This document shows positions 51,542-63,622 of a stretch of 64,000 nt of DNA, piece by piece. The notes under the pieces are model-generated. The model saw only the letters and a list, made by a program, of their open reading frames with translations, ran no database searches and was not told the DNA's origin. A program made the position numbers and the translations under genes. Each line of letters begins with the position of its first letter. Position 1 is the first letter of the stretch. The DNA is from Candidatus Agathobaculum pullistercoris (lineage in GTDB: Bacteria > Bacillota > Clostridia > Oscillospirales > Butyricicoccaceae). Where the stretch lies: positions 1 to 64,000 of the forward strand of contig DXFS01000101.1 of NCBI GenBank assembly GCA_019114345.1, written 5' to 3'.

Positions 51542-54106
51542 TCAGCCCTTCGGAAGAGAACGCGTCTCCTGCCCAGTACCCAAGCTGTCGATGATTGTGA
51601 TAACAAGTCCGCGTATGTTATTCTCGGTGGTGCGATAGGGAGCGATGCGAAGGGTATAGCAGCGGCCGTTCAGCGCCGTCACCTCCCGGTCGATGGAAAT
51701 CAGATCTGTCAGAACGGTGCGGCAGTCTTTCTCGATGGCCTCTTCCGGGAAACTGTGGGCAAAGATTTGAATCGGGCGGCCCACATCGTGATCCATCAGC
51801 TGGAACTCCCGTCCCACATACTCGGTGAACTTGCGGATATTTAAATTGCTGTCCACGAAGAGAATACCGATCATAGTAGAAGACAGGAAATTGGACAGAT
51901 CGTTGGTCATCATAGTCAGTTCGTCCAGCTTCACCTGGTGCTCCGTATTGACTGTGTAAAGCTCCTCATTGACAGATTGCAGCTCCTCTGTAGAGGACTG
52001 CAGCTCTTCATTGGCTGTAAGCAGTTCCTCATTGGCTGCCTGCAGTTCCCCGTTTACCGCTTCCAGCCGCTGGATGGTGGAACGCAGATCGTTCTGGGAC
52101 TCCTGGTACTCCCGTTCCAGATCGGAGATGCGGCGGGCCGCCGTAGCGTTCAGGTCGTACTTCTCCACGATCCCCTCCTCAGCGGGTGCAGGGTTATCCA
52201 GGAAAAGGATCGCCAACAGTTCATTTTCGTCCCCGTTTTCCTCCGGGACTGACTCCACCAAAAGGTCAATGACCTTTCGGCCTGCAGGCGTGTCCACGGG
52301 TATTTTGGTGTAAGTGATGGCGGTATGCTCCGCCCGGCAGCGGCTGACAGCGGTAGACGCCGCCAGGGACAGATCCTTATTCACCATCTGGAAAAAATTC
52401 AGCGTGGCTTTCCCCGGGGCCAAAGTCAGATAGTCGTTGTAATTGCCGAAAAAGTGGAGTACAGTATCATCCCCCCGGATAATCACAGAGGCCGGCAGGT
52501 ACCGTTCCAGGAACCGGGTATACCGGCGCTCATCTGTGTGTTCACCGCTCTGCGTGATACCGGCATGGATGTTTTTCAGAGAAAGGTTCTGAATATTGGG
52601 GATATTGAAGGTGGGAGGCGCCAAGTCCTCCACCTTGCCCTCTGCTTTATGCACATAGATCTTTTCCGTACTGCACACCGGCTTAAACAGATTCACATAT
52701 TCCCCAGCCGTCTCGCTTTTGCCAAGGAACAAGATCCCCCCGGTTTTCAGTGCCTGATGAAAGATGGCGAACAGCCCCCGCCGCATCACCGGCTGGAAGT
52801 AGATCATCACATTGCGGCAGCAGATGAGATCCAGCTTGCCGAACGGCGGATCGGAAAACATATTATGGGTAGCAAAAACGATCATCCGCCGCAGATCCTT
52901 GGAAACCTGGTACTGGTCCCCCACCTTCAGGAAGAACCGTGCCAGCCGATCCGGGGTGATATCGTCAATGATATTTTCCGAATAGAGCCCCCGTCCTGCC
53001 TGCTCAAGGGCGCGGCTGTCCACATCGGTGGCAAAGATCTTGACATCCCGTTTCACCTGCAGTTCTTCCATTGTCTCCTGGAACAGGATTGCAATGGAAT
53101 AGGCTTCTTCTCCGGTGGAACATCCGGCGGACCACACCCGGATGGGCTCATTCTCCTTGGCCTGCTCCACAATCTTGTAAATAGCGTTGTACTTGAGCTT
53201 TTCAAAGAAGGTGGGATCCCGGAAAAAGTTGGTGACACCGATGAAAATCTCCCGAGTCAGGACGCTTACCTCCTCTGGACTGTCTCCAAGGAGCCGCGCG
53301 AATTCAGACAGGGTAGAGGTATGGGTGACCAGCATCCGCCGTTCGATCCGCCGGAGAATAGTGGAACGTTTGTAGTAGGTGAAGTCGATGCCGCTGGCGT
53401 TTTTCAGGATCGTATAGATATGGGAGAGCGTCTCCTCCTCGGAGAAGGGGGTATCCTCATCAGCGAATGGGCTGTCACTGCGCAGGGGCCGCAGCAGGAC
53501 GGGCGTGGTGGAAAAATTCAGGATCTCCTCGGCAATCTCCTCCGGAGAGAGGACAAAATCCGCCAGCCCCGTGTTGATAACGCTCCGCGGCATGCCGTCA
53601 AACTTGGCACTGTCCGGATTCTGTGCGATGACCAGTCCCCCATGTTCTTTCACCGCCTTAACGCCGTTGGTGCCGTCCGATCCCGTTCCTGACAGGACAA
53701 CCGCGATCGAACGCTCCTTGCGTTCCTCGGCCAAAGAGACGAAAAATGCATCGATAGGGTGGTTGAGCGTCCCCACCGCATCATAGAGCTGTAACCTGTT
53801 CCCCTGGAGGGACATATATTTCTTTGGCGGGATCAGATAAACGGTGTCCGCCTCCACTCCTATGCCGTCCTCCGCCTGGCAGACAGACATTTCCGTATGC
53901 TTACTCAGGATGTCAGCCATCAGGCTCTTGTAATCCGGAGAGAGATGCTGGATCACCACAAAACTCAGCCCGCTGTTGGGCGGCATATAGTCAAAAAACT
54001 GCTGCAACGCCTCCAAACCGCCGGCGGACGCTCCAATGCCAATGATCAGCGGCTCTTTGGAGATGCTCTGTGCGTTTTGGGCCGGTTTTTCCGCTGTGTT
54101 GTTCAT
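51542..54106 (-). CDS. CheB methylesterase - CheR methyltransferase - PAS fusion
   Basis: CheB: GIGASAGGLEALQQFFDYMP, VLSGTGSDGTNGVKAVKEHGG; CheR: VWSAGCSTGEEAYSIAILF, DLICCRNVMIYF; coiled coil ELQAANEELLTANEELQSSTEELQSVNEELYTVNTEHQ; C-terminal PAS. Confidence 0.95.
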   Translation of the reverse strand: MNNTAEKPAQNAQSISKEPLIIGIGASAGGLEALQQFFDYMPPNSGLSFVVIQHLSPDYKSLMADILSKHTEMSVCQAEDGIGVEADTVYLIPPKKYMSLQGNRLQLYDAVGTLNHPIDAFFVSLAEERKERSIAVVLSGTGSDGTNGVKAVKEHGGLVIAQNPDSAKFDGMPRSVINTGLADFVLSPEEIAEEILNFSTTPVLLRPLRSDSPFADEDTPFSEEETLSHIYTILKNASGIDFTYYKRSTILRRIERRMLVTHTSTLSEFARLLGDSPEEVSVLTREIFIGVTNFFRDPTFFEKLKYNAIYKIVEQAKENEPIRVWSAGCSTGEEAYSIAILFQETMEELQVKRDVKIFATDVDSRALEQAGRGLYSENIIDDITPDRLARFFLKVGDQYQVSKDLRRMIVFATHNMFSDPPFGKLDLICCRNVMIYFQPVMRRGLFAIFHQALKTGGILFLGKSETAGEYVNLFKPVCSTEKIYVHKAEGKVEDLAPPTFNIPNIQNLSLKNIHAGITQSGEHTDERRYTRFLERYLPASVIIRGDDTVLHFFGNYNDYLTLAPGKATLNFFQMVNKDLSLAASTAVSRCRAEHTAITYTKIPVDTPAGRKVIDLLVESVPEENGDENELLAILFLDNPAPAEEGIVEKYDLNATAARRISDLEREYQESQNDLRSTIQRLEAVNGELQAANEELLTANEELQSSTEELQSVNEELYTVNTEHQVKLDELTMMTNDLSNFLSSTMIGILFVDSNLNIRKFTEYVGREFQLMDHDVGRPIQIFAHSFPEEAIEKDCRTVLTDLISIDREVTALNGRCYTLRIAPYRTTENNIRGLVITIIDSLGTGQETRSLPKG

Positions 54107-57100
54107 GGATGTTCCTCCTTGCGCTCTGTCTTCTGATCCACGGGGGCCGTTCCCCGCAGGTATTTCTGTTCAAATTCCTCCACCGGCAGTGGCTTATCGT
54201 AATAAAAGCCTTGGGCACAGGTGCAGCCCATTTCCAAAAGGGCAGCTACCTGCTCTGCCGTCTCTACGCCTTCCGCGATACAGTCCATATGAAATTTCCT
54301 GCAAATTTGGACAATATCCCGCACCAGCGTGTGGCTGATGGGATTGGCGGATATCCCGTTGATCAGGCTGCGGTCCAGCTTTACCGTATCAAACCTCACA
54401 TCCGTAAAGAGCGGGAGGTTTGCGTATTGTGAACCAAAATCATCCAGGCTGAGCCGCAAGCCGCAGGCATGGTACCGTTCTACAATCTGCTGCAGATCCG
54501 CGTTGTCCACACCTTCGTTCCGCTCTGTAATCTCCAATTCCAGTGCGGCTGACGGAATGTTGGGATAACGACTCTGCAGGGCCAGGATGGATGCCAGGGT
54601 GGAAGGATGGGCAATGGTGGTTCGAGACAGATTTACCGCGATGGGTATGATTCCCAGGCCGGCGCGCCGCCACTGATCCATCTGTACCAGAGACCGCTCC
54701 ACGACCATCAGATCCAGGTTCCGGATCGCGCCGTCCTCCTCCAGCAGGCTGATAAACTGGGACGGAAGGATGATTCGGCCGTCCGCACCGATCCCCCGCA
54801 CCAGCGCCTCCGCGCCAGAGAGCTTTCCAGCACTCATATCGATCTTGGGCTGCAAGTATATGACAAACCGTTTTTCTGCCTGCTCATCTCCCTGTGCGGC
54901 CGGCGTCGAATTCTCCGTAATTCGGCAGACCATGTCTGCTACATCCTCAGAAAAAAACTTCATGGAAGCTCTGGCGTCCTCTGCCAAACGCCGGCCGGTA
55001 AATATCCCCTCGGCCCAGGCCCGGCCGATGCGCACCTGTCTGGGGTACCTGCGCTGCAAAATGGATCGCAGGCGTCCGCACCGTTTCAGGAATACCTCCC
55101 GGGTGGTGTTTGGGAAAAATGCCACAAACTCTGTATCCCAGATCCGGAACACCAAGGAGGCCCCGAACAGATCGGTCAGTGTCTTGGCCACGTACCACAG
55201 CAGTTTGCTGTCTTTCTCCAGGCTGCATTTGCCTGCCGCTGCGGTACTGAGGATATCCAGACGCACTGCCCCCAGAGAGCTGAAGTGTTCGGAAGTCAGC
55301 TTCTGCATTTTTTTCAGATATGCCTGCCGGTCAGGCATCCCCATCAGGTTTCGCACAACGTCTGCAGCATTCGTCTCCTCATGGAAGCGCTCCCGCTCCA
55401 ACAGCAGATAAGGAATCAGCGTGCTGAACAGCGCCGCGTCTTTCGGGTGTTCCCGTGCGTTCTCAATACAGAGGAAGCCCTCCACTTCCTGTTCCCGGAT
55501 CAAGGGAAAAGCGGTAAAACACCATGTTCCCTCTGGTATTTCGCCCTCTTCTGTGCTGGAATTGTTTCGCGACAGAAACACTGGCGCTTGTTCGGACAGG
55601 CAACGTTCCAGCAGCGGGAAACGCTCGAGACGCATCCCGGATACCACCTGCTGAATGCTGCGCTTGCCGGGCCCCGTCCATTCAAAGGTCATAATCACCG
55701 ACTGCCGGTCTTCGACCAGGAGCAGCGTATAAACCCGGTCCGCATGGTAGTAGGCGCCGATCGTCTTGAGTACGCCAGTCACAGAAGCATCCAGTGTCTT
55801 GGAAGTGAGCATGGTAGTCACGCAGTCAAAGGCTACATCCTTCTCAGGCACAGACAGGGGACGTCCCATTTCTTCAGGGCGGACCGCACCCTCGCCGGTC
55901 TGCTGCCCCGCTTCGAGCTGGATCCATCCCCAATCGTCGACCTCCTGAGCGAACACCACTGTATCAGAGACAGCGTCTGCCTGCAGGGCGCAGGCCCGGA
56001 GCGCTTGCGCAAGCATGGTGCTGTAATCGGCTGCCCCGGCGGACATCAGGGATGCTCCGGCCAGGAACCGCAGCGGCGGATACGCCTCCTCTGCAGCCAG
56101 CGTCCTGCGCAGGCAATCCAGCCCTTGCTCGATTCGGCAGCGCAGATCCGCCTTTGTGGTGATATGTGGAAATACAATAACAAACCGGGTGGGGCTGTAC
56201 TGTCCCAGCACACAGCTGCCGCCCATAACCAGGGACAGTGCTGCGGCCGTCTCAAATTGTATCCGCTCCGCATCCGCGTCATCTGCTGCCACGTGCCGGG
56301 CTAAGCCGCAGAGCTGAAGGACTACCACTGCGCGATTGGTACCCGTCCGCCTGACAAACAGATCCTCCGCGATCCGTCGGATCGTATCCCGACTGTAAAG
56401 GCGGCTCACCGGGTTCCGCGAATTATCGCCCCGGACAGCAGGTTCCAACCGATGTCCGGGATCCAACCAGAGCAGATAGGCATACAGATGGATCTGCCGG
56501 GATGCCGGATCCTCTGCCAGGTAGATCACATGGCGAACCCACCGGATCCCGCCGCCGCTGTCTGCCCATCTGTATTCCGCGCACAGCCAGCGCTGTCCTG
56601 CATGAAACCGCTGGATGAGCTGTTCCCTGTCAAAGTATATTTGGAGGTCTCTCTGGTCGCCTTTGGTAAATACCTTTTGTCGCTTCATCTGAAGGAGATA
56701 GGAGCAGCGGGTCCCCCGCATCTGGCCAGTCAGGTCGCTTCCTTCCTCCCATAGCGCTTCAACTGTATCCAAATCCAAATTGGCGCGCATCCACATGATC
56801 AGATCAGCGACCATCCCCTCCGGCAGATGCTGCCGCTCTACCGGCCGCACGCCGGACTCGCCGAAGCCCTGCGGCAATTCCTCTATCACGCCCACAGCCC
56901 GGGCTGCCCGGCCCACATCGTCGAACAGCATCCGGTAAGAGACCGACGCCCAACTGTAGCAGTCGGCCCCCACCATGCGGACGGCAAAGTTTCCAAAACC
57001 CTGGGTACGCCCTTCCAGCAATTCCTGTGCAAAAGTGCGAAAGCGCTCTACAGAGCCTGGATGCACCAAGCCGCACTCGATCAGCTGGTCAGGAAACTGC

Positions 57101-58215
57101 GTTCCGTTCTCTTTCAAAGGGCGGTAGCTTCCGTCACGAGAATAAATGCGAAACACACCGGCGGGAACGTCTACCTCCCACAGCCTTTTGGAAGTCTGGT
57201 CCAGGGCAGCCTGCAGGCGGCGGATCTGCGTTTCCTGGAGTTGCTCTGTCTCCTTGAACCGGGAAATATCCATCCCTGTGACCAGCAGGACCGGATCCGG
57301 CGAATCGTATTCAATTCTCACGGCCCTGATATGCCACCAAGCCCATCGTCCCGTTCCTTCTGCCGGAGATATCCGGTGCGTATGCTCCACCATTTCTCCA
57401 CGCGCGAGGCCATTCCGAAGCGTCTCCTCCAGCGAAACCAGATCATCCGGGTGAATCAGCTCGGACAACGGCTTGGGCAGTGGATAAGTTTTGTGATCCG
57501 CCCCGATCAGGCGGCAAAAGCTGGAGCTGACATAGATCACCCGGGGATGGTTCCCCATCTCCAGCAGTGCCACGCCGCTGCCCAGGTTTTCCAGCAGACT
57601 GCTGAGCGGGATGGAACTCACCGGGCGGAACCCACCAACGCTTTCCTCCGGGGAAGAATCTCTGTTTTTAAAATAAAACCGATGTTTTCCCGCTTTTTTC
57701 GCCTTGTATAGCGCTAAATCTGCAGAGCGGTACAAACCCTCAAATGCCTGTCCCTTTGCCGCAAGATGGACGCCTACGCTGGCAGTGAGGTTAACGGTCT
57801 GCCGGTCCCCCAATACCAGCTGCAGTTCTGAACAGATCGCTGCGGCCTTGGTGCGCACCAGCTTTTCTGTGATGTTGCCGCAGAGGAATACTGCGAATTC
57901 ATCGCCTCCCAAGCGGCCCACAATGTCGCTGGCCCGGAACATGCCGGACAGAACCCGGCCCGTCTGCCGGATAGCCTGATCCCCCGCCTGATGCCCCAAT
58001 GTATCGTTGACCCGCTTGAAATCGTCCAGATCCACAATGAAAAGTGCGCAAGTCTCCTCCGGCATCATATTCGCCAGCCGCTCCTTGATGCGTCTCTCCA
58101 GGGTATCCCGGTTCATCAAGCCGGAAAGTTCATCTTTCATGGCGAGCCGCTGCAGCTCAACTATTTGTTTTTGCATCCCTGTCACAGAAGGCAATGAAAA
58201 ATTTTTCTCGTCCAT
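54103..58215 (-). CDS. Multidomain cyclic-di-GMP signalling protein (GGDEF-PAS-degenerate GGDEF-GAF-degenerate GGDEF-EAL)
   Basis: RLGGDEFAVFLCG; C-term GAEALVRG, LEITERN, LSLDDFGSQYANLPLF, CIAEGVETAEQV, CAQGFYYDKPLP. Confidence 0.92.
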   Translation of the reverse strand: MDEKNFSLPSVTGMQKQIVELQRLAMKDELSGLMNRDTLERRIKERLANMMPEETCALFIVDLDDFKRVNDTLGHQAGDQAIRQTGRVLSGMFRASDIVGRLGGDEFAVFLCGNITEKLVRTKAAAICSELQLVLGDRQTVNLTASVGVHLAAKGQAFEGLYRSADLALYKAKKAGKHRFYFKNRDSSPEESVGGFRPVSSIPLSSLLENLGSGVALLEMGNHPRVIYVSSSFCRLIGADHKTYPLPKPLSELIHPDDLVSLEETLRNGLARGEMVEHTHRISPAEGTGRWAWWHIRAVRIEYDSPDPVLLVTGMDISRFKETEQLQETQIRRLQAALDQTSKRLWEVDVPAGVFRIYSRDGSYRPLKENGTQFPDQLIECGLVHPGSVERFRTFAQELLEGRTQGFGNFAVRMVGADCYSWASVSYRMLFDDVGRAARAVGVIEELPQGFGESGVRPVERQHLPEGMVADLIMWMRANLDLDTVEALWEEGSDLTGQMRGTRCSYLLQMKRQKVFTKGDQRDLQIYFDREQLIQRFHAGQRWLCAEYRWADSGGGIRWVRHVIYLAEDPASRQIHLYAYLLWLDPGHRLEPAVRGDNSRNPVSRLYSRDTIRRIAEDLFVRRTGTNRAVVVLQLCGLARHVAADDADAERIQFETAAALSLVMGGSCVLGQYSPTRFVIVFPHITTKADLRCRIEQGLDCLRRTLAAEEAYPPLRFLAGASLMSAGAADYSTMLAQALRACALQADAVSDTVVFAQEVDDWGWIQLEAGQQTGEGAVRPEEMGRPLSVPEKDVAFDCVTTMLTSKTLDASVTGVLKTIGAYYHADRVYTLLLVEDRQSVIMTFEWTGPGKRSIQQVVSGMRLERFPLLERCLSEQAPVFLSRNNSSTEEGEIPEGTWCFTAFPLIREQEVEGFLCIENAREHPKDAALFSTLIPYLLLERERFHEETNAADVVRNLMGMPDRQAYLKKMQKLTSEHFSSLGAVRLDILSTAAAGKCSLEKDSKLLWYVAKTLTDLFGASLVFRIWDTEFVAFFPNTTREVFLKRCGRLRSILQRRYPRQVRIGRAWAEGIFTGRRLAEDARASMKFFSEDVADMVCRITENSTPAAQGDEQAEKRFVIYLQPKIDMSAGKLSGAEALVRGIGADGRIILPSQFISLLEEDGAIRNLDLMVVERSLVQMDQWRRAGLGIIPIAVNLSRTTIAHPSTLASILALQSRYPNIPSAALELEITERNEGVDNADLQQIVERYHACGLRLSLDDFGSQYANLPLFTDVRFDTVKLDRSLINGISANPISHTLVRDIVQICRKFHMDCIAEGVETAEQVAALLEMGCTCAQGFYYDKPLPVEEFEQKYLRGTAPVDQKTERKEEHP

Positions 58216-58796: not shown

Positions 58797-58873
58797 TGGT
58801 ACGCCAGAAGGGATTCGAACCCCCGACCTTTTGGTTCGTAGCCAAACACTCTATCCAGCTGAGCTACTGGCGC
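58797..58873 (-). tRNA. tRNA-Arg (anticodon ACG), CCA encoded
   Basis: Minus strand GCGCCAGTAGCTCAGCTGGATAGAGTGTTTGGCTACGAACCAAAAGGTCGGGGGTTCGAATCCCTTCTGGCGTACCA; anticodon loop CTACGAA. Confidence 0.95.
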
Positions 58874-59444: not shown

Positions 59445-60515
59445 TTACTGCATTTCGCAGAGCACGCGGACAACCTCGTCGCCCACCTGGTCGGTGGTCG
59501 CGGTGCCGCCCATATCCGGGGTCAGCGCCTTCTTTTCGACCATGACGCGCTCGATCACATCGATCAGCTTTTTGCCCCAGTCCTCGTGGCCGAAGAAGTC
59601 CAGCATCTGACTGGCCGACCAGACGGACGCCAGCGGGTTGGAGATCTTCTTGCCTGCAATATCCGGTGCGGAACCGTGGATGGGCTCAAACATGGACGGG
59701 AACTTGCGCTCCGGGTTAAGGTTGGCGCCGGCCGCCAGACCCATGCCGCCCGAAATCGCCGCGCCCAGGTCAGTGATGATATCGCCGAACAGGTTGGATG
59801 TTACAACGATCTCAAAGCGCTGCGGGTTCTTGACAAAGAACATGCTCGCCGCGTCGACCAGCAGGGAGTGGGTCTCGACATCCGGATACTCCTTGCCGAC
59901 CTCTTCAAATACCTGATCCCAGAATACCATGGAGTAGTTGAGGGCATTGCCCTTGCTGATGCTGGTCAGGCTCTTCTTCTCCTTGCGCGCCAGCTCATAG
60001 GCATAGCGGATGATGCGCTCAGTGCCGTGGCGGGAGAACACGCCGGTCTGCAGCACGACCTCGTTCGGCTGGCCCTTGTACAGCCAGTCGCCCGCGCCTG
60101 CATACTCACCTTCGCTGTTCTCGCGGATGACGATCATGTCGATGTCGCCCTTCTTGCAGCCTGCCAGCGGGCAGGGTGCGCCGTCCAGAAGCTTGACCGG
60201 GCGGACGTTGACGTATTCGTCAAAGTCGTGGCGGATGCGCAGCAGCAGATCCCACAGCGAGACGTGGTCGGGCACGCCGGGCATGCCGACCGCACCCAGA
60301 TAGATGGCGTCAAACTTGCTGAGCGTTTCAATGCCGTCGTCGTCCATCATCTTGCCGGTCTTGAGGTAGTATTCACAGCCCCAGGGGAATTCGGTAAATT
60401 CAAAGCGGAACGAGCCGTCCAGCTCGGCGACCTTATTGAGCACCTTCATGCCCTCGGCAATGACCTCCGGGCCGACGCCGTCGCCTGCGACAACCGCAAT
60501 CTTATAGGTTTCCAT
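59445..60515 (-). CDS. Isocitrate/isopropylmalate dehydrogenase family (tartrate / D-malate dehydrogenase-like)
   Basis: YKIAVVAGDGVGPEVIAEGMKVL; VIRENSEGEYAGAGDWLYKG; DAASMFFVKNPQRFEIVVTSNLFGDIITDLGAAISGGMGLAAGANLNPERKFPSMFEPIHGSAPDIAGK. Confidence 0.93.
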   Translation of the reverse strand: METYKIAVVAGDGVGPEVIAEGMKVLNKVAELDGSFRFEFTEFPWGCEYYLKTGKMMDDDGIETLSKFDAIYLGAVGMPGVPDHVSLWDLLLRIRHDFDEYVNVRPVKLLDGAPCPLAGCKKGDIDMIVIRENSEGEYAGAGDWLYKGQPNEVVLQTGVFSRHGTERIIRYAYELARKEKKSLTSISKGNALNYSMVFWDQVFEEVGKEYPDVETHSLLVDAASMFFVKNPQRFEIVVTSNLFGDIITDLGAAISGGMGLAAGANLNPERKFPSMFEPIHGSAPDIAGKKISNPLASVWSASQMLDFFGHEDWGKKLIDVIERVMVEKKALTPDMGGTATTDQVGDEVVRVLCEMQ

Positions 60516-60542
60516 GTTGTCTCATCCTTCTTTCTGTGTATC

Positions 60543-61811
60543 TCAGTCCAGCGGGAACGCTTGCGCTGCGTGGCGCAGTGCGCGCACAACCGGCAGCTCC
60601 TCGCCGCTCAGGAAACGGATCAGCGCGCCGCCGCCCGTGCAGATGTAGCCCATCTGCGGGCCGAGGCCGTATTTGTTGGTCGCCGTGACGCTGTCGCCGC
60701 CGCCGACCACGGTATACCCCTCGGTATCCGCCAGCGCCTGCCATACCGCCCTGGTGCCGAACTCGGTCTCTTCTTTTTCGAAAATACCCATCGGGCCGTT
60801 GACGAACACGGTCTTGGCGCCGAGGATCGCCTCGCGGTAATTTGCCGCGGTTTTGGCGCCGATATCGACCAGCATCTTGTCGCCCGGCAGGCTGCCCACC
60901 ATGGCTTCGCCGCGTTTTCCCTCTTCAGTATACGCCAGATCGGCCGGCAGCACAATCTTCTCACCGTATTTTTCGAGCAACGGCTTTGCTGTCTCGATAA
61001 AGCCGTCGTAGCCCTGCTTTTTGATAAAGCCGAGCGAGGCTTCGCCGATATTCTCGCCCTTGGCGGCGAGCAGGATATTCGCGACCACGCCACCGGACAG
61101 CACCTTGTCCGCGATGCCGCGGTCGAGCACAGTCTGCATCATCATAAATGCATCCGCGATCTTCGCGCCGCCGAGCACGAACACGCACGGCCGGTCGGGC
61201 GCTTCCATCAGAGAGGAGATCACGCTGTATTCCTTTTCAAACAGGCGGCCCATCATAGAGGGCAGGCGCTGCTCAAAGCCGCAGAGCGTGGGCTGGTCGC
61301 GGTGCGCAGCCGCGAAGGCGTCGCACACATAACAGTCTGCGAGCGGTGCGAGCGTGCGCACAACGAGCGTGTCCGCCTGCTGCTCGTGCGTCAGCTTGAG
61401 GCTGCGCTCAAACAGAGTTTGCTCCTCTGCCATAAAGCGTACATTGTCCAGCAGCAGCACCTCGCCGGGCTGCAGGCTGCGGATCGCGTCCTGCGCCGCC
61501 GGGCCGCATACGTCCGCGATGAATTTCACCTCGCTGCCGAGCAGCTGCTCGAGCACGCTGACATGCGGGCGCAGGGTATAGTAGTTCTTGTACTCGATGT
61601 CGCTGCCCTGGTGCGCCATGACGACCACCTTGGCGCCGCGGTCACGCAGCTCCTGGATCGTGGGCACGCAGCCGCGGATGCGGGTGTCGTCCGTGATCTT
61701 ATCCGCTGCGCGGTCGATCGGCTCGTTGATATCCACACGCAGCAGCACGGTCTTGCCCGAAACATCGAGCGAATCCAATGTATAGATGCCAAACTTTTTC
61801 ATCTCAGCCAC
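60543..61811 (-). CDS. Phosphoglycerate kinase, archaeal-type
   Basis: VLLRVDINEPI...RIRGCVPTIQELRDRGAKVVVMAHQG, GPAAQDAIRSLQPGEVLLLDNVRF, DAFAAAHRDQPTLCGF, VLGGAKIADAF, VVGGGDSVTA; closest by eye to archaeal PGK signatures. Confidence 0.88.
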   Translation of the reverse strand: MAEMKKFGIYTLDSLDVSGKTVLLRVDINEPIDRAADKITDDTRIRGCVPTIQELRDRGAKVVVMAHQGSDIEYKNYYTLRPHVSVLEQLLGSEVKFIADVCGPAAQDAIRSLQPGEVLLLDNVRFMAEEQTLFERSLKLTHEQQADTLVVRTLAPLADCYVCDAFAAAHRDQPTLCGFEQRLPSMMGRLFEKEYSVISSLMEAPDRPCVFVLGGAKIADAFMMMQTVLDRGIADKVLSGGVVANILLAAKGENIGEASLGFIKKQGYDGFIETAKPLLEKYGEKIVLPADLAYTEEGKRGEAMVGSLPGDKMLVDIGAKTAANYREAILGAKTVFVNGPMGIFEKEETEFGTRAVWQALADTEGYTVVGGGDSVTATNKYGLGPQMGYICTGGGALIRFLSGEELPVVRALRHAAQAFPLD

Positions 61812-62832
61812 GCGCCTTCATGCCGAGGTACTTGTTGGTCTCCGCCGTGCCCTCTTCGCGGGTCAGCTGCATCTGCATCGCAGCGCGGATGCCGTCCATA
61901 TTCTCCGGGATAACCACAGACTCCTGCGGGATGTTGATCGCGAACATGATCTGGTCGCCGCTCATAACGATGGACTCGTCCCACAGTGCGATCTCGTAGT
62001 TGTCGCCGCGGAACTTGCCCATGTCGCGCGCATAGCGGAACAGGGATGCGTTGCCGAGGAAGCCGTCCGCGATCTTGACCGTGCGGATACGGGGATGCTG
62101 GGCCGCCATCTCGAGCAGGTCCGCCTTGTTGATCTTCTTCTTAGGCGTTGCAACGACCGTGATGATGTGACCGTGGGTAACAGGGGCATGCACGAGGATG
62201 CCGGTCGCATCCACATGCGGCATGATGTTCATCAGGTCGAGCGCCTGATGGCTGGGGGCATATTCCATCTGGAGGGCGTTGGTCAGGCCGCGGTGATAGT
62301 CGCCCGGATCGGCGACGCGGCGGATGATGGTGATGGCGACCTTTTCCACGCCGACATTGCGGTCGATCATGTCGACAGCGCGGATCAGGCCGGTAGTATT
62401 GCAGCTGGTCAGCTTGAGGAACTGCTGGCCGAGGCCCTTTTCGTAGTTCGCGTAGCCATGGAAGAACACATCTGCCACGTTGTTCTTCTCACCGCCCTGG
62501 AAAATGGCCTTTTTGCCCATGCGCGCGTAGAGCTCCTTATTCTTCGCGCCGATGCCGGCCGAGGTCGCGTCGAGGATGATGTCGCACTGCTCGACCATAT
62601 CCTCCATCGTGCCCGAAATCGGCACGCCGGCTTCCTTGAGCTTGTCCTCATTCTCGGGCAGCGCATTGTAGAAATGATACGGCATGCCGGACTCCACCAG
62701 CCCGCGCACTGCCAAAGTGGGCGCTACGTCGGATACACCGACCAGCTCCATATCCTCCTGCATCGCTACGCCCGTTGCCAGACGAAGACCAATTACGCCA
62801 TAACCTGCCACGCCAACTTTTACCTTGCCCAT
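61804..62832 (-). CDS. Type II (archaeal-type) glyceraldehyde-3-phosphate dehydrogenase
   Basis: VKVGVAGYGVIGLRLATGVAMQEDMELVGVSDVAPT; catalytic SCNTTGLIRAVDMID; PGDYHRGLTNAL; typical of the archaeal GAPDH-II family. Confidence 0.9.
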   Translation of the reverse strand: MGKVKVGVAGYGVIGLRLATGVAMQEDMELVGVSDVAPTLAVRGLVESGMPYHFYNALPENEDKLKEAGVPISGTMEDMVEQCDIILDATSAGIGAKNKELYARMGKKAIFQGGEKNNVADVFFHGYANYEKGLGQQFLKLTSCNTTGLIRAVDMIDRNVGVEKVAITIIRRVADPGDYHRGLTNALQMEYAPSHQALDLMNIMPHVDATGILVHAPVTHGHIITVVATPKKKINKADLLEMAAQHPRIRTVKIADGFLGNASLFRYARDMGKFRGDNYEIALWDESIVMSGDQIMFAINIPQESVVIPENMDGIRAAMQMQLTREEGTAETNKYLGMKARG

Positions 62833-62901
62833 GCTTCTTCCTCCTGTAAATGGTCATATCTTGGTTAATTCAATGTCAACTTCTGATCAGATGTTATTTA
62901 T

Positions 62902-62930
62902 ACTATACCATGGTTCCATTTCCATTGCAA
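62902..62930 (-). promoter_or_regulatory. Promoter of the GAPDH-II/PGK/dehydrogenase operon
   Basis: Minus strand TTGCAA - 17 nt - TATAGT. Confidence 0.7.
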
Positions 62931-62943
62931 TAGATAATTGCAA
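62925..62943. promoter_or_regulatory. Operator-like dyad overlapping the -35 box
   Basis: TTGCAAT-AGATA-ATTGCAA perfect 7-5-7 inverted repeat; one arm is the -35 hexamer. Confidence 0.65.
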
Positions 62944-63034
62944 ACTTTTTATTGTATTTTTTCTGTCAATCACGTTATTTTTATATCAAATACAAAACTT
63001 TGATAGCAAAATAACAAAATGTGCAAGCTGCATA

Positions 63035-63068
63035 ATAACCTGGTTATATTTTGGTTATTTTTAACCAA
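63035..63068. promoter_or_regulatory. Clustered TAACC/GGTTA dyads upstream of the operon promoter
   Basis: ATAACC-T-GGTTAT (63035-63047) and TTGGTTA-tttt-TAACCAA (63051-63068). Confidence 0.5.
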
Positions 63069-63100
63069 GACATTATCTCTTTTCCAGTGCTGCCACACGC

Positions 63101-63143
63101 AAAAACAAAAAACCTGTACGCCGTTTCCCTTTCAGCGTACAGG
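63101..63143 (-). terminator. Intrinsic terminator of the marR-like gene
   Basis: Minus strand CCTGTACGC...GCGTACAGG followed by TTTTTTGTTTTTG. Confidence 0.8.
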
Positions 63144-63172: not shown

Positions 63173-63622
63173 TCAGTTTTCTTCCTCTTTAAGGATATTT
63201 TCCATATTTTCCCATAATCGATGCATTGTATCGACCAGCGCTTTTTGCTCTGCAGATGACAGCATCGACAGGGCGCGCACCTCGAACCGGCGCAAAGCCT
63301 CGCTAAGCTCACGCGCAAACGCGCTCCCTTCCCCGGTCAATACGACCACTCGGCTGCGCCGGTCTCCTTCCGACACGCGTCGCGCTGCAATGCCCCGTTT
63401 TTCCAGGCTGTCGATCACACTGGCCACGGTCTGCTTGGACAGATGCAGCCTGCGGCACAGTTCCGCCTGGGACAGCGGTCCGTCCTGTTCATGCAGCAGC
63501 GTCAGGATATTGAGCATATTGAAGGTAATTCCCCGGCGCGCCGCCCATTTTTCATAAACCGCGTCTACACCCAGCCAGCTTTCGTAATATCTGTTGAGCA
63601 GTTCATCCTCTGCATGCGCCAT
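63173..63622 (-). CDS. MarR-family transcriptional regulator
   Basis: GITFNMLNILTLLHEQDGPLSQAELCRRLHLSKQTVASVIDSLEKRGIAARRVSEGDRRSRVVVLTGEG winged helix. Confidence 0.93.
   Translation of the reverse strand: MAHAEDELLNRYYESWLGVDAVYEKWAARRGITFNMLNILTLLHEQDGPLSQAELCRRLHLSKQTVASVIDSLEKRGIAARRVSEGDRRSRVVVLTGEGSAFARELSEALRRFEVRALSMLSSAEQKALVDTMHRLWENMENILKEEEN

Follow-up and report, generated by a model that had tools for sequence, protein, structure and literature searches.

Archaeal-type GAPDH and PGK genes linked to inositol catabolism in Clostridia: a predicted branch through D-malate

Why should a bacterium of the Butyricicoccaceae carry an archaeal-type glyceraldehyde-3-phosphate dehydrogenase (GAPDH) and an archaeal-like phosphoglycerate kinase (PGK) in one operon with a beta-decarboxylating dehydrogenase? 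The three genes, named here GAP2, PGK2 and TDH, lie at 59445-62832 of a 64,000-nucleotide stretch (the window) of Candidatus Agathobaculum pullistercoris (GCA_019114345.1, contig DXFS01000101.1, positions 1 to 64,000). Based on the residues of the encoded proteins, the gene neighbourhoods and the co-occurrence across genomes, we consider it quite probable that GAP2-PGK2-TDH constitutes the lower half of a myo-inositol pathway that would be independent of IolC and aldolase.

An archaeal-type gene pair and its inositol neighbours

The three genes are encoded in the window as follows.

GAP2: 61804-62832, minus strand, 342 aa, type II (archaeal-type) phosphorylating GAPDH, above the cut-off of TIGR01546/NF003251
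PGK2: 60543-61802, minus strand, archaeal-like PGK homologue (PF00162)
TDH: 59445-60515, minus strand, beta-decarboxylating dehydrogenase of the TIGR02089 family

The initial annotation had described three close-packed minus-strand genes as one unit, and both coordinates and identities were confirmed: GAP2 and PGK2 abut, and PGK2 and TDH are separated by 27 nt. GAP2 carries the SCNTTGLIR signature and was recognised as a type II GAPDH with 301.5 bits against TIGR01546 (curated cut-off 232.9), while TDH belongs, as had been suggested, to the tartrate/D-malate dehydrogenase family (TIGR02089, 504 bits, cut-off 470.4) and is 51% identical to E. coli DmlA. The archaeal style ascribed to PGK2 was upheld by similarity, with the archaeal P. 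horikoshii 2cun as the best PDB match (303 bits, versus 243 of the best bacterial one) and 397 bits against Pfam PGK (PF00162), but no NCBIfam PGK model reached its own cut-off. The PGK2 open reading frame is listed from GTG 61811; ATG 61802, directly after the GAP2 stop (TGAGATG), is the likelier start, as relatives begin with MKKFGI.

GAP2 was detected above cut-off in 11 of 291 genomes of the class and in 5 of 40 near relatives, displaying a patchy distribution; the nearest named loci are those of Agathobaculum/Butyricicoccus metagenome-assembled genomes (MAGs) and Intestinibacillus massiliensis, and the identity of GAP2 to clostridial relatives outside the genus is 65-79%. Surroundings were compiled from the GAP2 genomes plus 80 named loci, with many GAP2 loci located on short contigs. 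PGK2 adjoins GAP2 in 85 of 91-92 related loci, so that their adjacency cannot be put down to chance. Among 88 distinct GAP2 loci, PGK2 was found in 81, each of iolD, iolE, iolB, iolG and the transketolase halves in 29-37, the malate racemase gene LarAH6 in 28, TDH in 9 and an Asp/Glu racemase in 7. Representatives of the neighbours were identified as IolD (TIGR04377, 982 bits), IolE (TIGR04379), an IolB/KduI family protein, an IolG-like oxidoreductase, a transketolase encoded as separate N and C halves, malic enzyme, LacI regulators, a ribose-type ABC transporter and the nickel-dependent LarAH6 (NF052593, 600 bits). The conserved linkage on which the initial annotation had made its reading depend therefore holds in part: GAP2-PGK2 is kept widely and well beyond the genus, but the trio with TDH is confined to Butyricicoccaceae, one Bacillus, C. 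ganghwense and one or two spirochaetes. The gene order in C. ganghwense (L144), GAP2-PGK2-tktN-tktC-iolB-iolD-TDH-iolE-iolG, has the TDH homologue sitting between iolD and iolE and so places a window-like TDH within an inositol operon.

The host genome (G000; 77% complete, 102 contigs) was found to encode canonical pgk (contig C82) and canonical gapA (contig C3), the second pair that the initial annotation had proposed to search for, and therefore GAP2 and PGK2 do not serve housekeeping glycolysis. It also has two iolD genes above cut-off (867 and 861 bits; contigs C11, C32), with iolD, iolB and a split transketolase located within 7.4 kb on C32, and iolB, the second iolD and an IolG-like gene on C11. 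Contig C46 has another split transketolase, orthologous (94%) to the one adjoining iolD-iolB in the sister genome G329, where iolE, iolG, iolD, iolB and the transketolase share one 18-kb stretch. Homologues of transketolase, malic enzyme and IolE are linked in both G329 and I. massiliensis. For IolC (TIGR04382), the best match in the 77%-complete host genome was 197.5 bits, below the cut-off of 300.

Among the 291 class genomes, iolD was detected in 23 and iolC in 12; GAP2 and iolD coincided in 8 genomes, iolC and iolD in 10, and all three in none. Accordingly, iolD occurred in 8 of the 11 GAP2 genomes versus 15 of the 280 without GAP2 (Fisher p = 6e-8), and iolC in none of the 8 genomes having GAP2 and iolD versus 10 of the 15 having iolD but no GAP2 (Fisher p = 0.003), p-values that overstate independence because the genomes are related. 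Of 28 GAP2 genomes, hand-picked from loci already in view and hence subject to the same reservation, 24 had iolD, 2 contained an IolC that passed the cut-off (26 without it) and all 28 had canonical GapA, which together with the canonical genes of the host rules out housekeeping glycolysis. A glycolytic replacement was also considered for the Christensenellaceae-like GAP2-PGK2 lying beside unrelated housekeeping genes, and was rejected, since the four such genomes checked (G345-G348) have canonical GapA plus IolD.

The predicted D-malate consumer beside GAP2-PGK2 is interchangeable, and genomes largely have either TDH or a racemase plus malic enzyme. LarAH6, a measured malate racemase (PMC7583248), scored above cut-off in 21 of the 28 GAP2 genomes, namely in none of the 5 with linked TDH versus 21 of the 23 others (p = 2e-4); some loci have an Asp/Glu/hydantoin-racemase-family protein instead of LarAH6, often with malic enzyme, and others TDH. 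In the Bacillus locus L085, pyruvate dehydrogenase genes are located immediately 5′ of GAP2-PGK2-TDH, which fits pyruvate as the product. In a maximum-likelihood phylogeny of 93 GAP2 proteins, a long branch lies between the bacterial sequences and the four from archaea. The window GAP2 groups with GAP2 of Butyricicoccaceae and of Bacillus B15-48 (100/99 support), all of these having TDH; C. ganghwense and the spirochaete L124 were placed in other GAP2 clades. Because the TDH carriers thus fall in separate clades, and the TDHs of C. ganghwense and L124 are only 55% identical to that of the window, TDH has probably been gained by the pair more than once, which argues for D-malate as the product.

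Several further loci were observed during this survey. Inositol operons at L177:6910-7986, L178:6074-7150, L179:6862-7941 and L181:6994-8070 (all minus strand) encode a protein of ∼358 aa, which matches Pfam TAL_FSA in the L177 and L179 copies and was assigned by size and position only in L178 and L181; MMSDH (L177) or an acylating aldehyde dehydrogenase (L179, L181) is encoded nearby, and three of these operons belong to genomes (G037, G065, G082) without IolC or GAP2 above cut-off. This protein may catalyse a kinase-free cleavage of 2-deoxy-5-keto-D-gluconate (DKG) to dihydroxyacetone and malonate semialdehyde. At L154:16-1008 (plus strand), IolC is encoded in the same locus as a GAP2 set. 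In L104, L105, L123 (spirochaetes), L068, L102 and L145, an Asp/Glu/hydantoin-racemase-family protein lies beside GAP2-PGK2, mostly without nearby iol genes, and an HpcH/HpaI aldolase is also near in L104, L105 and L123; the former is perhaps a non-nickel malate racemase and the latter perhaps a second source of malate semialdehyde.

Residue changes and a predicted carboxylate-for-phosphate pathway

Across 85 PGK2 proteins, R21, D23, N25, R38, H62, R122 and R170 (usual PGK numbering) are invariant, and the Arg65 position is lost in every one, being Asp in 72, Ser in 10, Gly in 2 and Asn in 1; the window protein has Ser70 there, the host canonical PGK keeps Arg, and 2cun carries Lys. The 3-phosphate of 3-phosphoglycerate (3-PG) is hydrogen-bonded by Arg65, Arg122 and Arg170 (PMC7729029), a three-arginine clamp that PGK2 does not complete. 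The loss of Arg65, usually to an acid, is a change that a carboxylate substrate would allow and that should damage a 3-PG kinase; PGK2 would work like a PGK, but we do not class it as a 3-PG kinase.

In the alignment of GAP2 with the archaeal structures 2czc, 1cf2, 1b7g and 2yyy, SCNTTG and H222 are invariant, by which Cys144 was assigned as the nucleophile and His222 as the catalytic histidine. However, of 91 bacterial GAP2 proteins, at least 95% have a different residue at each of 22 positions that are identical in the four archaeal structures. Several of these lie close in sequence to the catalytic His and Cys, for example H196Q, L220H, M221G, H224I and H302P (window numbering, archaeal residue first). 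Lys35, another of the 22, is replaced by Asp in 90 of 90 bacterial sequences. An acidic residue ending the second Rossmann strand usually goes with NAD+ use, so this change suggests NAD+ instead of NADP+ as the GAP2 cofactor, i.e. the catabolic direction.

As a ketose, DKG is CH2OH-CO-CHOH-CHOH-CH2-COO-, D-threo like xylulose; in other words, it is D-xylulose-5-phosphate with the CH2-O-PO3 end swapped for CH2-COO- and with equal configuration at C3 and C4. Starting from the observed gene complement and its linkage, the mutual exclusion with IolC and the residue changes, we infer the reactions of transketolase, GAP2, PGK2 and TDH as follows. IolG, IolE, IolD and IolB, encoded elsewhere in the host or sister genome, would produce DKG, from which the iol-linked split transketolase would transfer the two-carbon ketol unit onto a sugar phosphate as acceptor, cleaving C2-C3 and releasing (R)-3-hydroxy-4-oxobutanoate, i.e. 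(R)-malate semialdehyde (OHC-CHOH-CH2-COO-), the carboxylate analogue of D-glyceraldehyde-3-phosphate (D-GAP). GAP2, a predicted NAD+-dependent phosphorylating (R)-malate semialdehyde dehydrogenase, would use NAD+ and Pi to turn this aldehyde into (R)-malyl phosphate, the analogue of 1,3-bisphosphoglycerate, whose phosphate PGK2 is predicted to pass to ADP, yielding D-malate and ATP. TDH, predicted to be a D-malate dehydrogenase, would then carry out the oxidative decarboxylation (D-malate + NAD+ -> pyruvate + CO2 + NADH), a last step that in most other lineages would fall to LarAH6 or the Asp/Glu-racemase-family protein plus malic enzyme. D-malate would be the product because D-threo DKG yields the R aldehyde, and this configuration would call for a D-malate dehydrogenase, as in the window, or for a malate racemase plus malic enzyme, as in most others.

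The model accounts for the genes that recur around the pair, for the lack of IolC, for a GAPDH and a PGK beyond the canonical ones, and for the replacement of Arg65. It appears likely that transketolase, a phosphorylating GAPDH and a PGK acting on DKG and (R)-malate semialdehyde together mirror pentose-phosphate and lower-glycolytic chemistry with carboxylate in place of phosphate, a new inositol branch gaining ATP at the substrate level via (R)-malyl phosphate as a natural intermediate in Clostridia, Spirochaetota, Anaerolineae and the gut Butyricicoccaceae. The initial annotation had envisaged a specialised aldehyde/acyl-phosphate route joined to the oxidative decarboxylation of a hydroxy-diacid such as tartrate or D-malate; such a route with D-malate is now the best model, and tartrate is not needed. 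Two features had not been foreseen, namely that the aldehyde most likely derives from myo-inositol via transketolase, and that the third gene would be one of several D-malate-consuming solutions.

A number of observations weigh against this pathway. Apart from the relatedness of the sampled genomes, three of the 11 GAP2 genomes in the class sample (G163, G259, G272) have no iolD, and IolD is likewise missing from Bacillus B15-48 (and the Bacillus locus L085), a Tissierellales MAG and Christensenella hongkongensis, which means that the aldehyde must have other origins as well. G179 has an iol cluster that is not linked to GAP2-PGK2 and includes its own candidate aldolase, and C. ganghwense (G342) has IolC and the GAP2 set in one genome. 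Sister genomes without LarAH6 still have malic enzyme in the iol/transketolase cluster, which in the model is redundant with TDH. In the window organism itself, trio and iol genes are on different contigs of the incomplete assembly, and their linkage comes from relatives. Lys219 is missing from PGK2 and from the archaeal 2cun as well, and therefore the Arg65 change alone is diagnostic. Some loci combine GAP2-PGK2 with HpcH/HpaI aldolase or TRAP-like transporter genes, which suggests that GAP2-PGK2 serves as a module handling malate semialdehyde of various origins.

Could GAP2 and PGK2 instead be an auxiliary set of ordinary enzymes, converting D-GAP to 3-PG and boosting lower-glycolytic flux on inositol or other sugars, with TDH acting on an unrelated hydroxy-diacid? 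Characterised members of both families do use GAP and 3-PG, the catalytic residues of both proteins are retained, and triose phosphates are also supplied by the inositol pathway. We nevertheless regard this as unlikely, since canonical GapA is already in place in every genome checked, Arg65 is lost throughout PGK2, the association with iolD is strong while IolC is nearly absent, and the recurrent D-malate enzymes beside the pair would be left unexplained.

Farther from the evidence stands another aldehyde/acyl-phosphate couple, such as erythrose-4-phosphate to 4-phosphoerythronate or one starting from tartrate semialdehyde, with TDH taking a tartrate- or erythronate-type product. The adjoining LarAH6 has been characterised as a malate racemase (PMC7583248), the malic enzyme is malate-specific by family, a phosphorylated substrate is at odds with the Arg65 loss, and the IolC-less inositol operons would have no enzyme for DKG; these points make such a couple very improbable, even though transketolase linkage would be equally compatible with erythrose-4-phosphate and the TDH family also takes tartrate and isopropylmalate besides D-malate. 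A tartrate pathway was rejected as well, with no tartrate-specific neighbours among the annotated loci. We give least credence of all to a reverse operation, in which ATP and NADH would be spent on reducing D-malate to malate semialdehyde, either for biosynthesis or as an electron sink. GAPDH/PGK chemistry is reversible, and genes for an Fe-alcohol dehydrogenase and for a relative of butyryl-CoA:acetate CoA-transferase lie beside iolB in one iol cluster of the Butyricicoccaceae, but TDH of the same operon would draw D-malate off to pyruvate, Asp35 in GAP2 suggests NAD+ use, and catabolic transport, dehydrogenase and isomerase genes surround the pair.

Leader region and flanking genes

Upstream and downstream of the operon, the following features were located in the window, those of the leader by pattern scans.

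63173-63622, minus strand: MarR-family regulator (PF12802), upstream of the operon
62833-63110, minus strand: leader/promoter region
63051-63068, leader region: palindrome TTGGTTATTTTTAACCAA, candidate MarR operator
63035-63047, leader region: palindrome ATAACCTGGTTAT, candidate MarR operator
62930-62902, minus strand: sigma-70-like promoter TTGCAA-17-TATAGT

A MarR-family gene also adjoins GAP2 in the close relatives L036 and L039, and the protein is the probable regulator of the GAP2-PGK2-TDH operon. Degenerate in L079 and undetected in more distant relatives, the long palindrome is a weak operator candidate; the palindromes, sought as a shared regulator motif in the iol contigs, were not found there. 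Downstream of the trio, the gene at 54103-58215 (minus strand) encodes a protein of 1370 aa, in whose translation sensor regions are repeated and GGDEF and EAL-like motifs occur; it shows no relation to the trio as far as seen. A tRNA-Arg (ACG) lies between this signalling gene and the trio (58797-58873, minus strand).

Significance and known systems

The GAP2-PGK2 set is real, conserved and not glycolytic, and as judged from sequence comparison it is best read, with good confidence as to the type of pathway, as a new variant of inositol catabolism with phosphate-mimic chemistry. Inositol, from phytate and phospholipids, is a common gut and soil substrate; iolC was one of four core genes in a large survey of inositol users (PMC9430895), and a known DKG-phosphate aldolase was found in just 7 of 15 inositol-using genomes in the GapMind work (PMC9007349). 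The proposed route would partly fill this aldolase gap and alter how such genomes are read. It would also supply a likely physiological role for the malate racemase Mar2/LarAH6, whose in vivo role was left open by its discoverers (PMC7583248), and explain why bacteria equipped with normal GAPDH and PGK genes have archaeal-type ones besides, with the warning that such genes labelled 'GAPDH' and 'PGK' are probably not glycolytic. Furthermore, it would offer natural enzymes for the malyl phosphate/malate semialdehyde chemistry that metabolic engineers build artificially today. No prior description of a malate racemase with inositol, of transketolase with DKG or inositol catabolism, or of a malate semialdehyde/malyl phosphate route was found in the open-access literature searched, whose silence is no proof of absence.

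With classical myo-inositol catabolism (IolGEDBCJA of B. subtilis and Anaerostipes), the proposed route has in common the IolG, IolE, IolD and IolB steps to DKG, as matched by family. It would differ from there on: with the IolC kinase lacking, the step of the DKG-6-phosphate aldolase (IolJ or DUF2090, PMC9007349) would fall away as well, malonate semialdehyde would not arise, the C2 unit would enter the pentose phosphate pool with formation of a C4 acid, and ATP, spent at IolC in the classical route, would be gained at PGK2. The carnitine pathway shares the same aldehyde, and the sequence of malic semialdehyde to D-malate to pyruvate via a DmlA-family enzyme has been demonstrated there (PMC11353897); E. 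coli dmlA adjoins carnitine monooxygenase genes. In that pathway, however, the aldehyde is produced by CntA/CntB, which depend on O2, and the aldehyde dehydrogenase that oxidises it is non-phosphorylating (PMC11353897), whereas GAP2 and PGK2 would conserve ATP, anaerobically and from inositol. The archaeal GAPDH-II/PGK couple consists of homologous enzymes with the chemistry in the same order, but GAP2 and PGK2 differ from it by the predicted carboxylate-for-phosphate substrate, the probable use of NAD+ rather than NADP+ and many invariant differences in the active-site region. A synthetic pathway to 2,4-dihydroxybutyrate reportedly starts from L-malate and proceeds through the other semialdehyde. 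That synthetic pathway (PMC12104201) likewise connects malate, malyl phosphate and a malate semialdehyde by a kinase and a dehydrogenase, using engineered enzymes and running in the opposite direction to the natural route proposed here.

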